A stretch of DNA of 64,000 bases from Thermococcus radiotolerans. Its GTDB lineage: Archaea > Methanobacteriota_B > Thermococci > Thermococcales > Thermococcaceae. Of this stretch, positions 28,764 to 55,581 are shown piece by piece (within the stretch, counting starts at the first letter, position 1; every line of letters begins with the position of its first letter). Made by a program: the position numbers and the translations under genes. Where the stretch lies: NCBI RefSeq assembly GCF_002214565.1, contig NZ_CP015106.1, forward strand, positions 620,001-684,000, in the 5' to 3' direction. The notes under the pieces are model-generated. The model ran no database searches and had not been told where the DNA came from. It saw only the letters and a list, made by a program, of their open reading frames with translations.

Positions 28764-29024
28764 TCACAGCTCATCCACATCAACGCCCTTCACGTGCTCG
28801 CTCACGTAGCCCTCGAGAATCTCAACCTTTACGCTCCGGTCCTCACCAGTCATGTCGGCCATCAGCTGAACTCCCCTCGCATAGTCCCAGAGGCGCCTCT
28901 TTGCCTCGTCCGTGACCCTCTCCGCCATGACGATTATCTCCCTCTCGTCGGGCCTCTCGCTCACGATCTCGATGACCCTCCTAGCATCTTCCTCGGTGAA
29001 GGTTCCCCTCTTCTTGAAGAGCAC
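28764..29024 (-). CDS. Small conserved hypothetical protein
   Basis: About 86 residues, mixed alpha/beta, acidic. The central stretch REIIVMAERVTDEAKRRLWDYARG is not a motif I recognise. GTG at 29024 has GGAGGTGG at good spacing; the open frame begins at 29033. It lies 9 bases before queE and may be co-transcribed. Confidence 0.55.
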   Translation of the reverse strand: MLFKKRGTFTEEDARRVIEIVSERPDEREIIVMAERVTDEAKRRLWDYARGVQLMADMTGEDRSVKVEILEGYVSEHVKGVDVDEL

Positions 29025-29077
29025 GGCCACCACCTCCAGCTTTAATTAAATAATCCTGTAATTCGGTGATTACATAA

Positions 29078-29578
29078 TCAGATGTATCTCATCAGCAGTT
29101 CAACGGCTTCCTCGAATATCTCCCTGTCCCTTCCATCGAGAACGCTCTCCAGATAGTGTAGGCTGACGAGGTTAAGGATTATGTAGGCGGTGTTCCTGTC
29201 CAGACCAAGGTCATAGGCCTCGTAGTAGACGATCTCCCTGCCCAAGGCATCGTTGAGCATCTCCACGAAATAGGCGATGTCTTCCACGCGGAGCTCGTCC
29301 CATTTGCTCTCCATCTCGTCGAAGTAGCGCTCCATGACCCTGAGCGTTTCAAGGTCAACCTTCAACGTTCCCTCAAAGTAGGGGAACTCACCCACGCGGA
29401 AAATCTTGACGCCCTCCTCGTCCTGGACGCCTATGTAGTCCCACAGGAGAATACCCTCTACTGGATTGTGGCCGTATTTGCTCGCCAGGTAGGAGAAGCG
29501 TTCCATTATCTCGGTCATGTCATCGAGAAACTCCTCTTCGTCGCGGAAGTGTATTATCTTGCTTATCGTTCCGGCCAT
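29078..29578 (-). CDS. Conserved hypothetical protein, acidic helical
   Basis: About 166 residues, mostly helical and acidic, with an aromatic-rich C-terminal half (EIVYYEAYDLGLDRNTAYIIL). No domain recognised. ATG at 29578 follows AGGTGCAG. A minus-strand TATA element (ccttataac) lies at about 29611-29619. Confidence 0.55.
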   Translation of the reverse strand: MAGTISKIIHFRDEEEFLDDMTEIMERFSYLASKYGHNPVEGILLWDYIGVQDEEGVKIFRVGEFPYFEGTLKVDLETLRVMERYFDEMESKWDELRVEDIAYFVEMLNDALGREIVYYEAYDLGLDRNTAYIILNLVSLHYLESVLDGRDREIFEEAVELLMRYI

Positions 29579-29707
29579 GTTCTGCACCTATGGGTGAGTT
29601 AGCCCAACCGTTATAAGGTTTTGTGCATAGGAAGAATTGCCCGACGAGTATTGGGTTGCGATGACGTCGGGACCCCCAGGGGGGCGACATCTCCACTGCC
29701 CCCCTTA

Positions 29708-29731
29708 CAAACTTTTCTGGTGAAAAGTTTG
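29708..29731. repeat. Hairpin repeat 1: CAAACTTTTC / GAAAAGTTTG
   Basis: A perfect 10-base stem with the 4-base loop TGGT. Related hairpins follow at 29987-30009 and 30080-30102. Confidence 0.6.
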
Positions 29732-29833
29732 ATCAAATAATTCTGACTGTTCATGAGGCGGGTTTTATAGTCTGTGCACTTTAAGGCAGGTAAGTTTTGT
29801 TGTTGGTTTGTTTTACAATTATGATTTAACAGT

Positions 29834-29883
29834 GGTTCACTCTCAAGAAAGGCGTCCAACGGACGCCAGAATGGGAGTGAACC
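29834..29883 (+). ncRNA. Candidate structured RNA, two-stem hairpin
   Basis: GGTTCACTCTC (29834-29844) pairs with GGGAGTGAACC (29873-29883) over 11 bases including one G-U pair. Inside, GGCGTCC (29851-29857) pairs perfectly with GGACGCC (29861-29867) around an AAC loop. Purine-rich internal loops AAGAAA and AGAAT separate the stems. A TATA-like element lies about 70 bases upstream. I see no ACA box or C/D boxes, so the RNA class is unknown. Confidence 0.4.
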
Positions 29884-29986
29884 CTTGTAAAAAGTCCAGC
29901 TTAATGTTAAACCTCCTTTTCCTATAGCAAATTTTAGAGCGCACGCATTATCCTCTGCCAGTTCGACAGGAAAAGAACTTTTTGGT

Positions 29987-30009
29987 GAAACTTTGCTGGA
30001 CAAAGTTTC
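29987..30009. repeat. Hairpin repeat 2: GAAACTTTG / CAAAGTTTC
   Basis: A perfect 9-base stem with loop CTGGA, sharing the AACTTT core and preceding TTTTGGTG with the other hairpins of this region. Confidence 0.6.
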
Positions 30010-30079
30010 AACGTCCAGATAAATTTTATAAGGGAATCTTCTATCAATCGGCGGGTTTAAAGGAACCGCGAACTTTGAT

Positions 30080-30102
30080 GAAACTTTGCCATGCAAAGCT
30101 TC
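30080..30102. repeat. Hairpin repeat 3: GAAACTTTGC / GCAAAGCTTC
   Basis: A 10-base stem with one mismatch and the loop CAT, just upstream of the rpl37Ae TATA element. Confidence 0.55.
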
Positions 30103-30178
30103 CAGGCAAAGGTTTATAAAACGTCCCCGGAAACACTCTCCAGTCGTGAAAATCGGTTGATAATTAGAGGTGATGCTC

Positions 30179-30439
30179 ATGGGAAGGACTACTAAGGTTG
30201 GTTCAGCCGGAAGATACGGTCCAAGGTACGGTCTCAAGATTAGAAGAAGGGTCGCGGCCGTTGAGGCCAAGATGAAGCAGAAGCACGTCTGCCCGGTCTG
30301 CGGAAGGAAGGCCGTTAGGAGGATTAGCACGGGCATATGGCAGTGCCAGAAGTGCGGCGCCACCTTCGCCGGCGGTGCCTACCTGCCGACCACTCCGGCC
30401 GGAAAGGTCGCCAAGCGTGTCACGGCCTCCAAGGCCTGA
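30179..30439 (+). CDS. rpl37ae: Large ribosomal subunit protein eL43 (L37Ae)
   Basis: 86 residues, [18 protein letters not shown] at the start and a C2-C2 zinc ribbon, CPVCGRKAV and [13 protein letters not shown]. It matches eL43 in length and sequence. ATG at 30179 has GAGGTGAT upstream; the frame opens at 30170. It leads the conserved cluster with rpoP, Brix and Pcc1. Confidence 0.95.
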
Positions 30440-39130: not shown

Positions 39131-40033
39131 TTAGTCCCTTGATGTTTTTGCTTGAATTTTTTCAATCAGCAAATAAACTTCCTCAATTGCGTGGATAGAT
39201 TCTACAAATATCCTCTCAGCTTCGTTTATCTCGAACACTTTATCAGGATGCTCTGCACTATTACGTATTTCTCTCAAAAAATCCAAATATCCCTCCAATC
39301 GCTTAGATCTGATTTTGCGATATTCTAACTGCTTTTGGATTTCAGAAAGAGCATAATTCCATGTGGGGTAAGAATCTACTTCGTTAACGTCTTCATTTGT
39401 TAATTTGAAATACAGGTCCCTAATTGCAGCCTCTACCGCTCTCAATGATATCATTACAGAGGCCGTGGGAAGATCAAACAGCAATGCCTTAAAAGACTCC
39501 AGTAAATCATGCGATACTATTTCAGGAATGTGGTTAACCACTATCTCTGGGTATGAGAACAATGGCTGTAATCCGGTGGATAGCAGGTTTTCGTAATCTA
39601 AGATGCCCTTATGAACTTCAATCTCAATAGTTTTCCTTTTTGAGAGTTCCTGTTGTAAGAGAGTTATTATGATTTCAACAGTCCGCCTAAGAGCTCTTAA
39701 GTCATTTTCATCGATGTTCCTTGGAGTAGACTCAAGTTCGGAAGCATATTTCTGGTGAAGGTATGAAATCAACTCATCCAATTCGCTGTATTGAATTATA
39801 TGCTCTAACCCCTTTCTTTTCAAGAAATCTTGAATCAGGTACAATGTCCACAATATATATCCTTTGCCTTTTTGATCGCTAACTTCTCCAGAAGGCAAAA
39901 CAACTAAATCCTCAGGTCTAGCTAGTCGTATGTATTCTGTCCAAGTTCCAATTGTATACGCGTCAATTAAGTCTATCGGCTCTACAACAGGTTCAGAAGT
40001 TTGTTGGGGCAAAGTCCCATTCTCATCTTCCAT
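39131..40033 (-). CDS. AT-rich islet gene with HEPN/DUF4145-like C-terminus
   Basis: About 300 residues. The gene is much richer in A/T than everything around it, pointing to recent transfer. The N-terminal 180 residues are unrecognised. The C-terminal 110 are helical, with ASVMISLRAVEAAIRDLYF and LDFLREIRNSAEHPDKVF. Arg257-x4-His262 matches the R-x4-6-H motif of HEPN ribonucleases and the shape of DUF4145. It has its own promoter and no partner gene next to it. A defence or RNase role is inferred. Confidence 0.6.
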   Translation of the reverse strand: MEDENGTLPQQTSEPVVEPIDLIDAYTIGTWTEYIRLARPEDLVVLPSGEVSDQKGKGYILWTLYLIQDFLKRKGLEHIIQYSELDELISYLHQKYASELESTPRNIDENDLRALRRTVEIIITLLQQELSKRKTIEIEVHKGILDYENLLSTGLQPLFSYPEIVVNHIPEIVSHDLLESFKALLFDLPTASVMISLRAVEAAIRDLYFKLTNEDVNEVDSYPTWNYALSEIQKQLEYRKIRSKRLEGYLDFLREIRNSAEHPDKVFEINEAERIFVESIHAIEEVYLLIEKIQAKTSRD

Positions 40034-40085
40034 TGTGTCCACCCACTAACAATAAACGTAACTAGTGGTATAAAAAAGTTTGGTC
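40034..40085 (-). promoter_or_regulatory. Promoter of the AT-rich islet gene
   Basis: On the minus strand aacttttttataccac (plus 40062-40080) provides a TATA element, followed by GGTGG before ATG at 40033. Confidence 0.45.
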
Positions 40086-53819: not shown

Positions 53820-54230
53820 ATGGGAGACAAGACCAAGGTTCAGGTTAGCAAGCTCAAGCCGGGAAGGTACATCCTTATCGACGGTGAGCCCTGCAGGATT
53901 GGCAACATAACCGTTTCCTCGCCTGGCAAGCACGGCTCCGCCAAGGCCAGGATCGAGGCCGTTGGAATCTTCGACGGCAAGGTCAGGAGCATCGTCAAGC
54001 CCACCAGCGCGGAGGTTGACGTTCCGATCATCGACAAGAGAACCGCCCAGATCATCGCCATGACCCCGGACACCGTCCAGATCATGGACATGGAGACCTA
54101 CGAGCTCTACGACGTCCCGATCGAGGGCGGCGTCGCCGACGACATCAAGGACCAGCTCAAGGAAGGCATCAACGTCGAGTACTGGGAGACCCTCGGCAGG
54201 ATCAAGATAATGAAGCTCAAGGGCGAGTGA
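53820..54230 (+). CDS. Translation initiation factor aIF5A
   Basis: 136 residues. The hypusination loop [12 protein letters not shown] carries the Lys that is modified to deoxyhypusine or hypusine; [13 protein letters not shown] and a C-terminal OB fold complete the match. A TATA-like aaaaattttttaaag lies at about 53761-53775, and GGGAGGTCTG precedes the ATG. It relieves ribosome stalling during elongation. Confidence 0.95.
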
Positions 54231-54279
54231 GCCCCCTTCTACCTCTTTAAACCAAACTTTTCTCGGAAAGTTAAAAAAG
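54231..54279. terminator. Bidirectional T/A-rich terminator between aIF5A and treT
   Basis: The sequence ccccttctacctctttaaacc is followed by AACTTTTCTCGGAAAGTT, a short hairpin resembling the AACTTT hairpins of the 29.6-30.1 kb region. The two genes converge here. Confidence 0.4.
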
Positions 54280-55518
54280 CTAGAGGGAATTCAGGAGGTC
54301 CAGATACCTCTCCAGGTGCCCGGTAATTAAAAAGTTCTCCAGCACCCTTTTTCTTGCCTTCATGCCCATGAGGTCTGTTTCTTCCGGGTGTTTCAGCAGA
54401 TAGATGGTCTTCTCGACGGCATCTTCCACCCCCTTCACGAGAAAGCCGGTTTCACCGTCAACCACTTGGAACTTGATTCCTCCAACGGCCCTGCCAACCA
54501 CAGGCTTACCCTTCCACATGGCCTCAGTCACAGTTAATCCAAAACCCTCCCTGATAGACATTTGCAAGACCACATCACTAGCCCGCTGGAAGGCGTTGAC
54601 CTCACGAGCGTGAACTCCAGTCAAATTCGTCAAAACCTTCACGTCGTAATCCTCGCCAATCTTCCTCAGGGTCTTCTCAAAGTAAACCCAGCCTTCCGGA
54701 TCGTCAGCAGCCATGACGCCGACGAGGAGAAGCTGAACCCCTGGAATCTTCTCCTTCACTTTCCGGTAAACGTCAATGACGTCAAATACTCCCTTCCAGG
54801 GGTCGAAGCGGGCGACTTGAGTGATTATCGGCCTGTCAGGGTCAACGTCGAACCTTTCGAGCGTTTTGAGAACCTCGGACTCGCTTAACTCCATGTTCTT
54901 CTCGCTTAACGGATCGATTGATGGAGGCATTATGACGGTTTTCCTTGGGTCCAGATCACTCTGAACGTATTCTGGAAGGTGAAAGATGTACCTATCGTAT
55001 TTCTGAACGTATTGTCTTAAGAATTCCCAGAATTCCCTGTTTGGATCGCTCAAGTCGATGTGGCAGCGCCATATCCAGGGCTGTCTCTTCTCGTAAAACT
55101 CTATCAATGCTGCTGGCTGTGGGTCGTGGACGAGGACGTAATCGAATTCAGTCAAGTCGGTTTTTTGGGCGTTCTCCTCGTTGGTTTTGATGTAGAGGTT
55201 TTTCATTTCCTCGGTGAGTTTGAGGTTTTTGTTGCCCTGGAGGGCGTTGTGGAAACTTTTAGTGACGTTGAAGAACTCGTCCGAGCCTTGAATGACGAAC
55301 CATTTGGCGTCGAGTCCTGAGTCCCTCATGAGGGGCACGAGATTGTGGAGTATCTCCGCAACGCCCCCGCCAAAGGACGTCGAGTTGACGTGGGCGAAGC
55401 TCTTTCCCTCCAACTTTTCCGCCTTGACTCTTATCCTTTCAACGGTCTCCTCTCCGATTATTCCGCTGTAATCCTCCAGGCCTTTACCGGCCCCTGTGAA
55501 GTCCCTAACCTCCAGCAT
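54280..55518 (-). CDS. treT: Trehalose glycosyltransferring synthase TreT (GT4)
   Basis: 412 residues. NSTSFGGGVAEILHNLVPLM is the N-terminal GT-B loop, QVARFDPWKGVFDVIDVYRK the donor region, and REGFGLTVTEAMWKGKPVV the C-terminal E-x7-E motif. TreT reversibly joins or splits trehalose with an NDP-glucose. It ends the mal gene string, 64 bases after malK. The start is at ATG 55518 behind GGGGGTGAT. Confidence 0.9.
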   Translation of the reverse strand: MLEVRDFTGAGKGLEDYSGIIGEETVERIRVKAEKLEGKSFAHVNSTSFGGGVAEILHNLVPLMRDSGLDAKWFVIQGSDEFFNVTKSFHNALQGNKNLKLTEEMKNLYIKTNEENAQKTDLTEFDYVLVHDPQPAALIEFYEKRQPWIWRCHIDLSDPNREFWEFLRQYVQKYDRYIFHLPEYVQSDLDPRKTVIMPPSIDPLSEKNMELSESEVLKTLERFDVDPDRPIITQVARFDPWKGVFDVIDVYRKVKEKIPGVQLLLVGVMAADDPEGWVYFEKTLRKIGEDYDVKVLTNLTGVHAREVNAFQRASDVVLQMSIREGFGLTVTEAMWKGKPVVGRAVGGIKFQVVDGETGFLVKGVEDAVEKTIYLLKHPEETDLMGMKARKRVLENFLITGHLERYLDLLNSL

Positions 55519-55581
55519 CACATCACCCCCTCACTTTCGGTAAGAAGAGAAAGGGCTGATTTGAGGCAGTCAGCGCAGTAA

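Follow-up and report, generated by a model that had tools for sequence, protein, structure and literature searches.

A gap upstream of rpl37Ae in Thermococcus radiotolerans with the gene of small RNA sRk28 and a putatively mobile foldback repeat

Layout of the gap upstream of rpl37Ae

The window analyzed here, a stretch of 64,000 nt from T. radiotolerans, carries at 29588–30178 a gap of 591 bases between a minus-strand ORF of 169 aa (29078–29587; start at 29587) and rpl37Ae (ATG at 30179), the latter identified by its NCBIfam L37Ae match. Inspection of the ORFs revealed no convincing protein gene in the gap. The initial annotation had described a long non-coding gap, the longest of the window; both points held, the second in a crude tiling of ORFs to which the 303-aa ORF at 39131–40042, dropped by the filter, had been restored. 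To the left, two conserved ORFs of 89 and 169 aa (28764–29587) are divergent from the RNA gene described below, and neither had a Pfam or NCBIfam match at E 0.01.

When 61 genomes were searched at the DNA level, the gap fell into pieces with differing behavior, and it is therefore composite. Query positions 48–122 recurred in most genomes of the same genus, positions 515–591 traveled with rpl37Ae, and the middle of the gap resembled other genomic places at ~70% identity. At the right edge lie the promoter and leader of rpl37Ae (30113–30178, plus strand), which are conserved with that gene in other genomes; the promoter, with a TTTATAA box at 30113–30119, was read by eye, and a ribosome-binding-like site, GAGGTGAT, occupies 30167–30174. 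The most conserved feature of the gap, 29639–29707, had not been singled out before. Taken as a whole, the gap is probably best explained as three units: the gene of the small RNA sRk28, a copy of a mobile foldback repeat that mostly trails RNA genes, and the rpl37Ae promoter and leader.

The sRk28 gene

The RNA gene at 29639–29707 (plus strand) was delimited by DNA conservation, a model match at 29639–29704, covariation and the position of the P. abyssi 5' end; its last three bases (TTA) would also belong to the gene. It consists of two G+C-rich stems of seven pairs each, with stem I (29640–29646 with 29665–29671), then a conserved loop and a CCCCCA linker, and stem II (29679–29685 with 29698–29704), and its consensus reads GCCCGACGAGUANNGGGUUGCGAUGACGUCGGGACCCCCAGGGGGSC...GSCCCCC. 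In a DNA search, the stretch 29630–29712 matched 77 of 94 Thermococcaceae genomes, in all six genera and once per genome, and 66 of the 74 good genomes. From 76 fetched regions plus the window, 75 intact copies were extracted; the covariance model recovered sRk28 in 75 of these 77 sources, the remaining two (G087 and G029) being broken. With strict filters, a phylum-wide search with the model found sRk28 in 6 of 12 genera, all of one family. Across 84,980 species, a scan with an exact pattern returned 14 loci, whose titles all named Thermococcus, Thermococcaceae or Thermococcales; with 75 copies known, it is not exhaustive.

The two stems were supported by the pattern of base changes. Among 59 distinct sequences, 99.5% of the pair cells were standard, and two pairs carried 41 two-sided compensatory cells, compared with 14.3 in shuffles (0/500 as high); sliding the pairing partners abolished the two-sided changes. 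Only 2 of the 14 pairs vary on both sides, and this number is not above shuffles because most pairs are invariant and thus uninformative, for or against. Since 34 of the same sequences went into the model, the alignment leans towards it. A kink-turn was considered on paper and rejected, as its sheared pairs clash with the covarying pairs. We also scanned 12 genomes for the complement of the sRk28 loop (12 nt, at most one mismatch). It gave 2 to 15 matches per genome, a count that includes the sRk28 gene itself in the 11 genomes having it, and exceeded a reversed-pattern control in several Thermococcus genomes (13 vs 2 in G000 and 15 vs 3 in G013). No recurring place that would point to an antisense partner was seen among the matches in the 12 genomes; such a partner may nonetheless exist.

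The upstream region of sRk28 resembles an archaeal promoter. In the window, a TATA box, TTATAA, lies at 29611–29616 (plus strand), −28 to −23 from the first G. When the 75 loci were aligned on that G, only A or T occurred at −26, −25 and −24, position −10 was A in 91% and position −1 a pyrimidine in 75/75; the TATA-like box is weak in the Pyrococcus-type copies. The gene behind sRk28 varies by clade and encodes L37Ae (rpl37Ae), a topoisomerase-I-like protein, an HTH-CBS-like protein, a PP-loop protein or others; the rpl37Ae, PP-loop and QueE-like proteins were checked against family libraries, and the other neighbors were named by eye. At one locus (L118 in G010), sRk28 is inverted within the gap found elsewhere between the 169-aa gene and rpl37Ae. 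With this promoter-like box and with downstream genes that vary, sRk28 looks like a free-standing gene under its own predicted promoter.

In G064, which we take to be P. abyssi GE5, in line with the agreeing position of sRk28, the model matched 527730–527797 on the minus strand. Excerpts of the P. abyssi study map the 5' end of sRk28 to 527798 on the minus strand, give sizes of 70/100 nt and report little of the RNA in stationary phase (Phok et al., PMC3124441), and those of the T. kodakarensis study describe a growth-phase-regulated, apparently orphan transcript (Jager et al., PMC4247193). The published RNA and the gene found here thus share the locus in G064, the strand, a start within 1 nt of the published 5' end and a similar size. 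Direct comparison supports the prediction that 29639–29707 is the gene of sRk28, the published ~70-nt RNA of P. abyssi and T. kodakarensis. The earlier statement that no known RNA class fits the gap is right for Rfam, in which sRk28 is absent though conserved across a whole family; for the literature it does not hold, as excerpts of both papers already name sRk28 (PMC3124441, PMC4247193). The Rfam search of sRk28 gave no guide-RNA family and a sole, chance-level match to snoR101 that lay outside the gene; box C/D and H/ACA boxes were sought by eye.

The two accounts differ in what sRk28 is. In print it is preQ1-like and may be cut from the leader of an mRNA, with no promoter of its own (PMC3124441, PMC4247193); here it appears free-standing. 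Both papers mention a possible preQ1 riboswitch (PMC3124441, PMC4247193); the published proposal, with a possible pseudoknot, is of a preQ1- or preQ0-type switch in a neighboring gene's leader, and a QueE-like gene does lie within 5 kb of sRk28 in 58 of 75 loci. That gene is, however, on the opposite strand in 57 of the 58, and in G064 it is far from sRk28. A PP-loop gene follows sRk28 in 8 Pyrococcus-type loci, and Pfam QueC matches part of its protein, weakly but above threshold; the protein scored 29.1 bits against the NCBIfam QueC cut-off of 150.3 and did better as TtuA-like, likewise below cut-off. No preQ1 family appeared among the Rfam matches up to E 10, and sRk28 holds no constant leader position before queuosine or archaeosine genes. 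Because the gene behind sRk28 differs between clades, the published preQ1 label is unsupported, and we consider the riboswitch reading quite improbable. A separate link between the PP-loop gene and sRk28, which had started from G102, a genome without both, failed over the 94 genomes: among the good genomes, G022, G028, G029, G031 and G091 have the PP-loop gene without sRk28, G002, G088, G061 and G117 have sRk28 without the PP-loop gene, and G099, G102, G103 and G108, all of one genus, have neither.

A conserved peptide read from 29662 onward (ATG ACG TCG GGA CCC CCA GGG GGG CGA) can hardly be the explanation, for although in that frame the two covarying pairs have their 3'-side columns at third codon positions, the partners of these columns change along with them, the other third positions are nearly invariant, the L125 copy has a 1-nt insertion in the frame, and the second loop varies in length by single bases.

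Several genomes have lost sRk28. In G087 it lacks an internal 15 nt, and in G029 it is decayed, as judged by eye. G103 carries a decayed copy at a contig edge, and G108 (L209) a decayed copy with ~2 kb of DNA inserted between it and the promoter of its neighbor. The first ORF of this insertion resembles an IS607-type protein by eye, and the locus is a natural knock-out. The same gap is short and without sRk28 in G028, G031 and G085, and no trace of the gene was found in G022. The 169-aa neighbor was found in 87 of 94 genomes and the QueE-like gene in 89, and both are retained in most genomes without intact sRk28. Judged from these genomes, sRk28 appears dispensable. A known small-RNA gene probably bears a wrong label, and its reassessment as something other than a riboswitch leader is a correction; we infer that the RNA would act in trans or in an RNP.

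Structure and distribution of the foldback repeat

The middle of the gap is occupied by a 302-bp copy of a foldback repeat (29708–30009, plus strand), which begins 3 nt past stem II of sRk28 and is matched by the repeat model R2 at 29825–29946 (111.7 bits). It consists of a left terminal hairpin, CAAACTTTTC-TGGT-GAAAAGTTTG (29708–29731), a core two-stem hairpin (29834–29883) defined by fold and covariation, and a right terminal hairpin (29987–30009), all on the plus strand. Two AAACTTT...AAAGTTT hairpins (29709–29730 and 29988–30008) were found in the window against a mean of 0.00 in 100 window shuffles, and the folds around them are weaker than that of the core (z −3.5 for 29700–29740 and −2.1 for 29970–30020). 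A degenerate hairpin resembling the right end lies at 30073–30101 (plus strand); the segment 30060–30120 had a z of −0.53, with 57/200 shuffles as good, and the loose right-end pattern matched nonetheless. The initial annotation had grouped the three as related hairpins with an AACTTT core. Their resemblance in sequence stands; two of them are the ends of the repeat, and the third, folding no better than shuffles, is likely a remnant, possibly of a second repeat copy. The further AACTTT hairpin claimed near 54257 matched none of the three repeat-family patterns used; at 54251–54275 a short hairpin lies between convergent ORFs (one aIF5A-like, ending at 54230, and one at 54280–55521).

R2, a model of 118 positions built from 16 copies, matched 66 of 94 genomes, usually several times each, the totals including weaker opposite-strand matches of the same copy; in T. 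radiotolerans itself there are 14 matches and fewer physical copies. By genus, matches occurred in 57 of 61 genomes of the window's genus, in 5/13 and 4/7 of two others and in none of three more. The core has the form GTTTCACTC...GGCGTCC NNN GGACGCC...GAGTGAAAC, and the consensus of 28 oriented sequences consists, in order, of the left hairpin, GCGTGCAATT, the core, TTTTAGAGTGCACGC and the right hairpin TTTTGGTcAAgCTTTg. Many copies were also matched on the reverse strand ~50 nt away, which gives the repeat the approximate shape of a long palindrome. When two copies were folded in isolation, each scored better than every shuffle (z −4.8 and −4.2).

The two-stem hairpin at 29834–29883, noted earlier, proved real, with a fold of −34 kcal/mol (z −7.6; 0/200 shuffles as good). 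The covariance check proposed for it turned up compensatory changes: two-sided changes occurred at 10 of 16 core pairs in 56 distinct copies, compared with 4.0 in shuffles (0/500) and 3–4 in slid versions, and a MAFFT alignment of 16 copies agreed, with 5 covarying core pairs against 1.4 in shuffles. This stability and these changes, together with a TTTTATAG box at 29762–29769, would also suit the initial proposal of an independent small-RNA gene at the hairpin. Yet the hairpin is the core of a repeat dispersed over 66 of 94 genomes, with similarity extending far beyond the hairpin, and covariation alone is therefore no proof of such a gene, a reading that we regard as very improbable. The gap does hold one small-RNA gene, as had been proposed; it is sRk28 at 29639–29707, not the hairpin.

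The repeat had no Rfam family in a search of the window and 17 source entries, some of them with copies, and no match in 72,556 plasmids; viral contigs gave no exact match to its core. No published description was found in the open-access literature, a scope outside which most subscription journals fall. What is novel at this locus is the repeat together with its placement, both apparently undescribed.

Placement of the repeat behind small-RNA genes

The consensus ahead of the left hairpin read like the 3' end of a tRNA, and ARAGORN was therefore run on the flanks of the repeat copies. Of 46 copies, which are mostly best matches, often one per genome, some of them orthologous, and hence not independent, 35 lay behind a same-strand tRNA gene within 600 nt, 19 of the 35 within 122 nt; at L307, tRNA-Pro is 94 nt upstream. 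Among 18 distinct tRNA-adjacent copies, 14 started exactly 3 nt past the CCA and the others at 1, 2, 2 and 6 nt. The right end, set by a loose pattern, was recognized in 16 of the 18, at 266–300 nt behind the tRNA. For 16 copies farther from a tRNA, the distance was 319–459 nt in 13, as if another unit stood between. Copies at L268, L274, L283 and L310 followed the C/D RNA sR36 on the same strand, the L277 copy followed sRk28, and those at L264 and L266 an apparent intron-bearing tRNA-Met (by eye). The L286 copy was preceded by nothing recognized, and the L288 copy was near a contig edge. In G007, one copy (L294) adjoined a CRISPR array and another (L295) came directly after the apparent stop codon of a protein gene; L295 is also beside an apparent lone CRISPR repeat, as read by eye.

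The loci of sRk28 gave a similar picture. R2 had 48 matches (E up to 0.1) in the 809,749 bases surrounding 75 sRk28 genes, and every one fell within 1.1 kb behind sRk28; they sat in 20 of the 75 loci, with the best match on the sRk28 strand in 20/20 and a few weaker ones on the opposite strand. Only one tRNA gene in total was contained in 47 scanned sRk28 loci. At least 24 of the 75 loci had a terminal-type hairpin starting exactly 3 nt past stem II, many of these hairpins being without a recognizable R2 core; the hairpin end finder missed L090, L099, L105, L137 and L139 and mistook some promoters (e.g., at L080) for hairpins. Up to three copies were seen in tandem behind sRk28 at L101 and L105. 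In 400 kb of G007 sampled at even steps, copies occurred at three places, all already among the matches listed earlier, and 3/3 were behind same-strand tRNA genes; 3 of the 11 tRNA genes in the sample had a copy and 8 had no R2 copy. By direct comparison, most Thermococcus copies stand immediately behind a small-RNA gene that shares their strand, usually 3 nt past the RNA.

Near-identical copies behind different tRNA genes of one genome indicate that the repeat moves. In G007, the copies behind tRNA-Val, -Leu, -Ile and -Lys were 97–100% identical over the model, and those beside the CRISPR array, tRNA-Arg and the protein gene 96–98%; mobility, with recent spread in G007, is strongly suggested by these sequences. 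The stretch shared in G007 is ~570 bp, so the moving unit may exceed one repeat and may be composite. Elsewhere, the closest relative of a copy is often one at the same RNA gene (98–99% in two pairs), so many were inherited. No target-site duplication was seen by eye in the flanks of the 18 tRNA-adjacent copies, whose right ends were set by the loose pattern. We take the repeat to be a candidate non-autonomous mobile repeat landing at small-RNA 3' ends. Insertion would target small-RNA genes at their 3' ends, guided perhaps by the transcript end (termination or processing) or by the DNA structure there, and the enzyme would be supplied in trans. We tentatively propose, as a conjecture more likely to fail than to stand, that an undescribed non-coding mobile DNA senses the ends of small stable RNAs and inserts ~3 nt beyond them, whatever the RNA (tRNA, C/D sRNA or sRk28). 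No other prokaryotic element is known to follow such a rule.

The main rival holds that the repeat serves small-RNA genes as a functional 3' trailer or terminator module and is retained for their 3' maturation or termination. The close and regular spacing behind tRNA, sR36 and sRk28, the conserved pairing of the core and the nearest-relative copies at the same RNA gene in several cases would all fit such a module. Its distribution is patchy, however, as only 20/75 sRk28 loci and 3/11 tRNA genes in the G007 sample carry it, and the tandem copies behind sRk28, as well as the recent, nearly identical copies standing at different G007 genes, also speak against it; we judge this reading unlikely, though ahead of the other alternatives. 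Far less probable still is descent from integrase-type elements whose att sites are tRNA 3' ends, the repeat being what is left of one. Like the repeat, SSV-type integrase elements such as the pT26-2 plasmids sit at Thermococcales tRNA 3' ends, and in excerpts of the source describing them their att sites overlap the tRNA (PMC6972569). A tRNA 3' end with a downstream match above 100 shuffles was found for at most 3 of 18 copies (L267, L272 and L308), which would fit this reading; the other 15 had none, copies also follow sR36 and sRk28, and the plasmid search was empty.

As a putative mobile repeat landing behind small-RNA genes, the element can be set beside other known systems. REP/BIME/REPIN and ERIC are bacterial intergenic palindromic repeats, and REP/REPIN are marked by a GTAG-type motif and a RAYT transposase partner. 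Our repeat resembles them in being short, non-coding and palindromic, with several copies per genome and a conserved fold, and differs in sitting directly behind small-RNA genes. The eukaryotic tRNA-gene-targeted retroelements, Dictyostelium TRE and yeast Ty3, likewise prefer the neighborhood of tRNA genes; unlike them, the repeat is archaeal, has no coding capacity, lies ~3 nt from the RNA end and also occurs at sR36 and sRk28. Closer to home, excerpts of the P. abyssi study describe sRk48/sRk52 and sRkB/sRkC, which are also repetitive structured intergenic loci of Thermococcales (PMC3124441), but with strict filters R2 matched none of the nine Pyrococcus-type (g12) genomes, G064 included.

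The natural losses of sRk28 offer ready comparisons towards its function. If the proposed insertion rule is true, insertion would be aimed by a transcript 3' end or a termination event, and the repeats would be natural flags for small-RNA 3' ends. Unannotated archaeal RNAs would be easier to find with a repeat family marking small-RNA gene ends, and such a family would add a new example of mobile DNA that targets safe sites.
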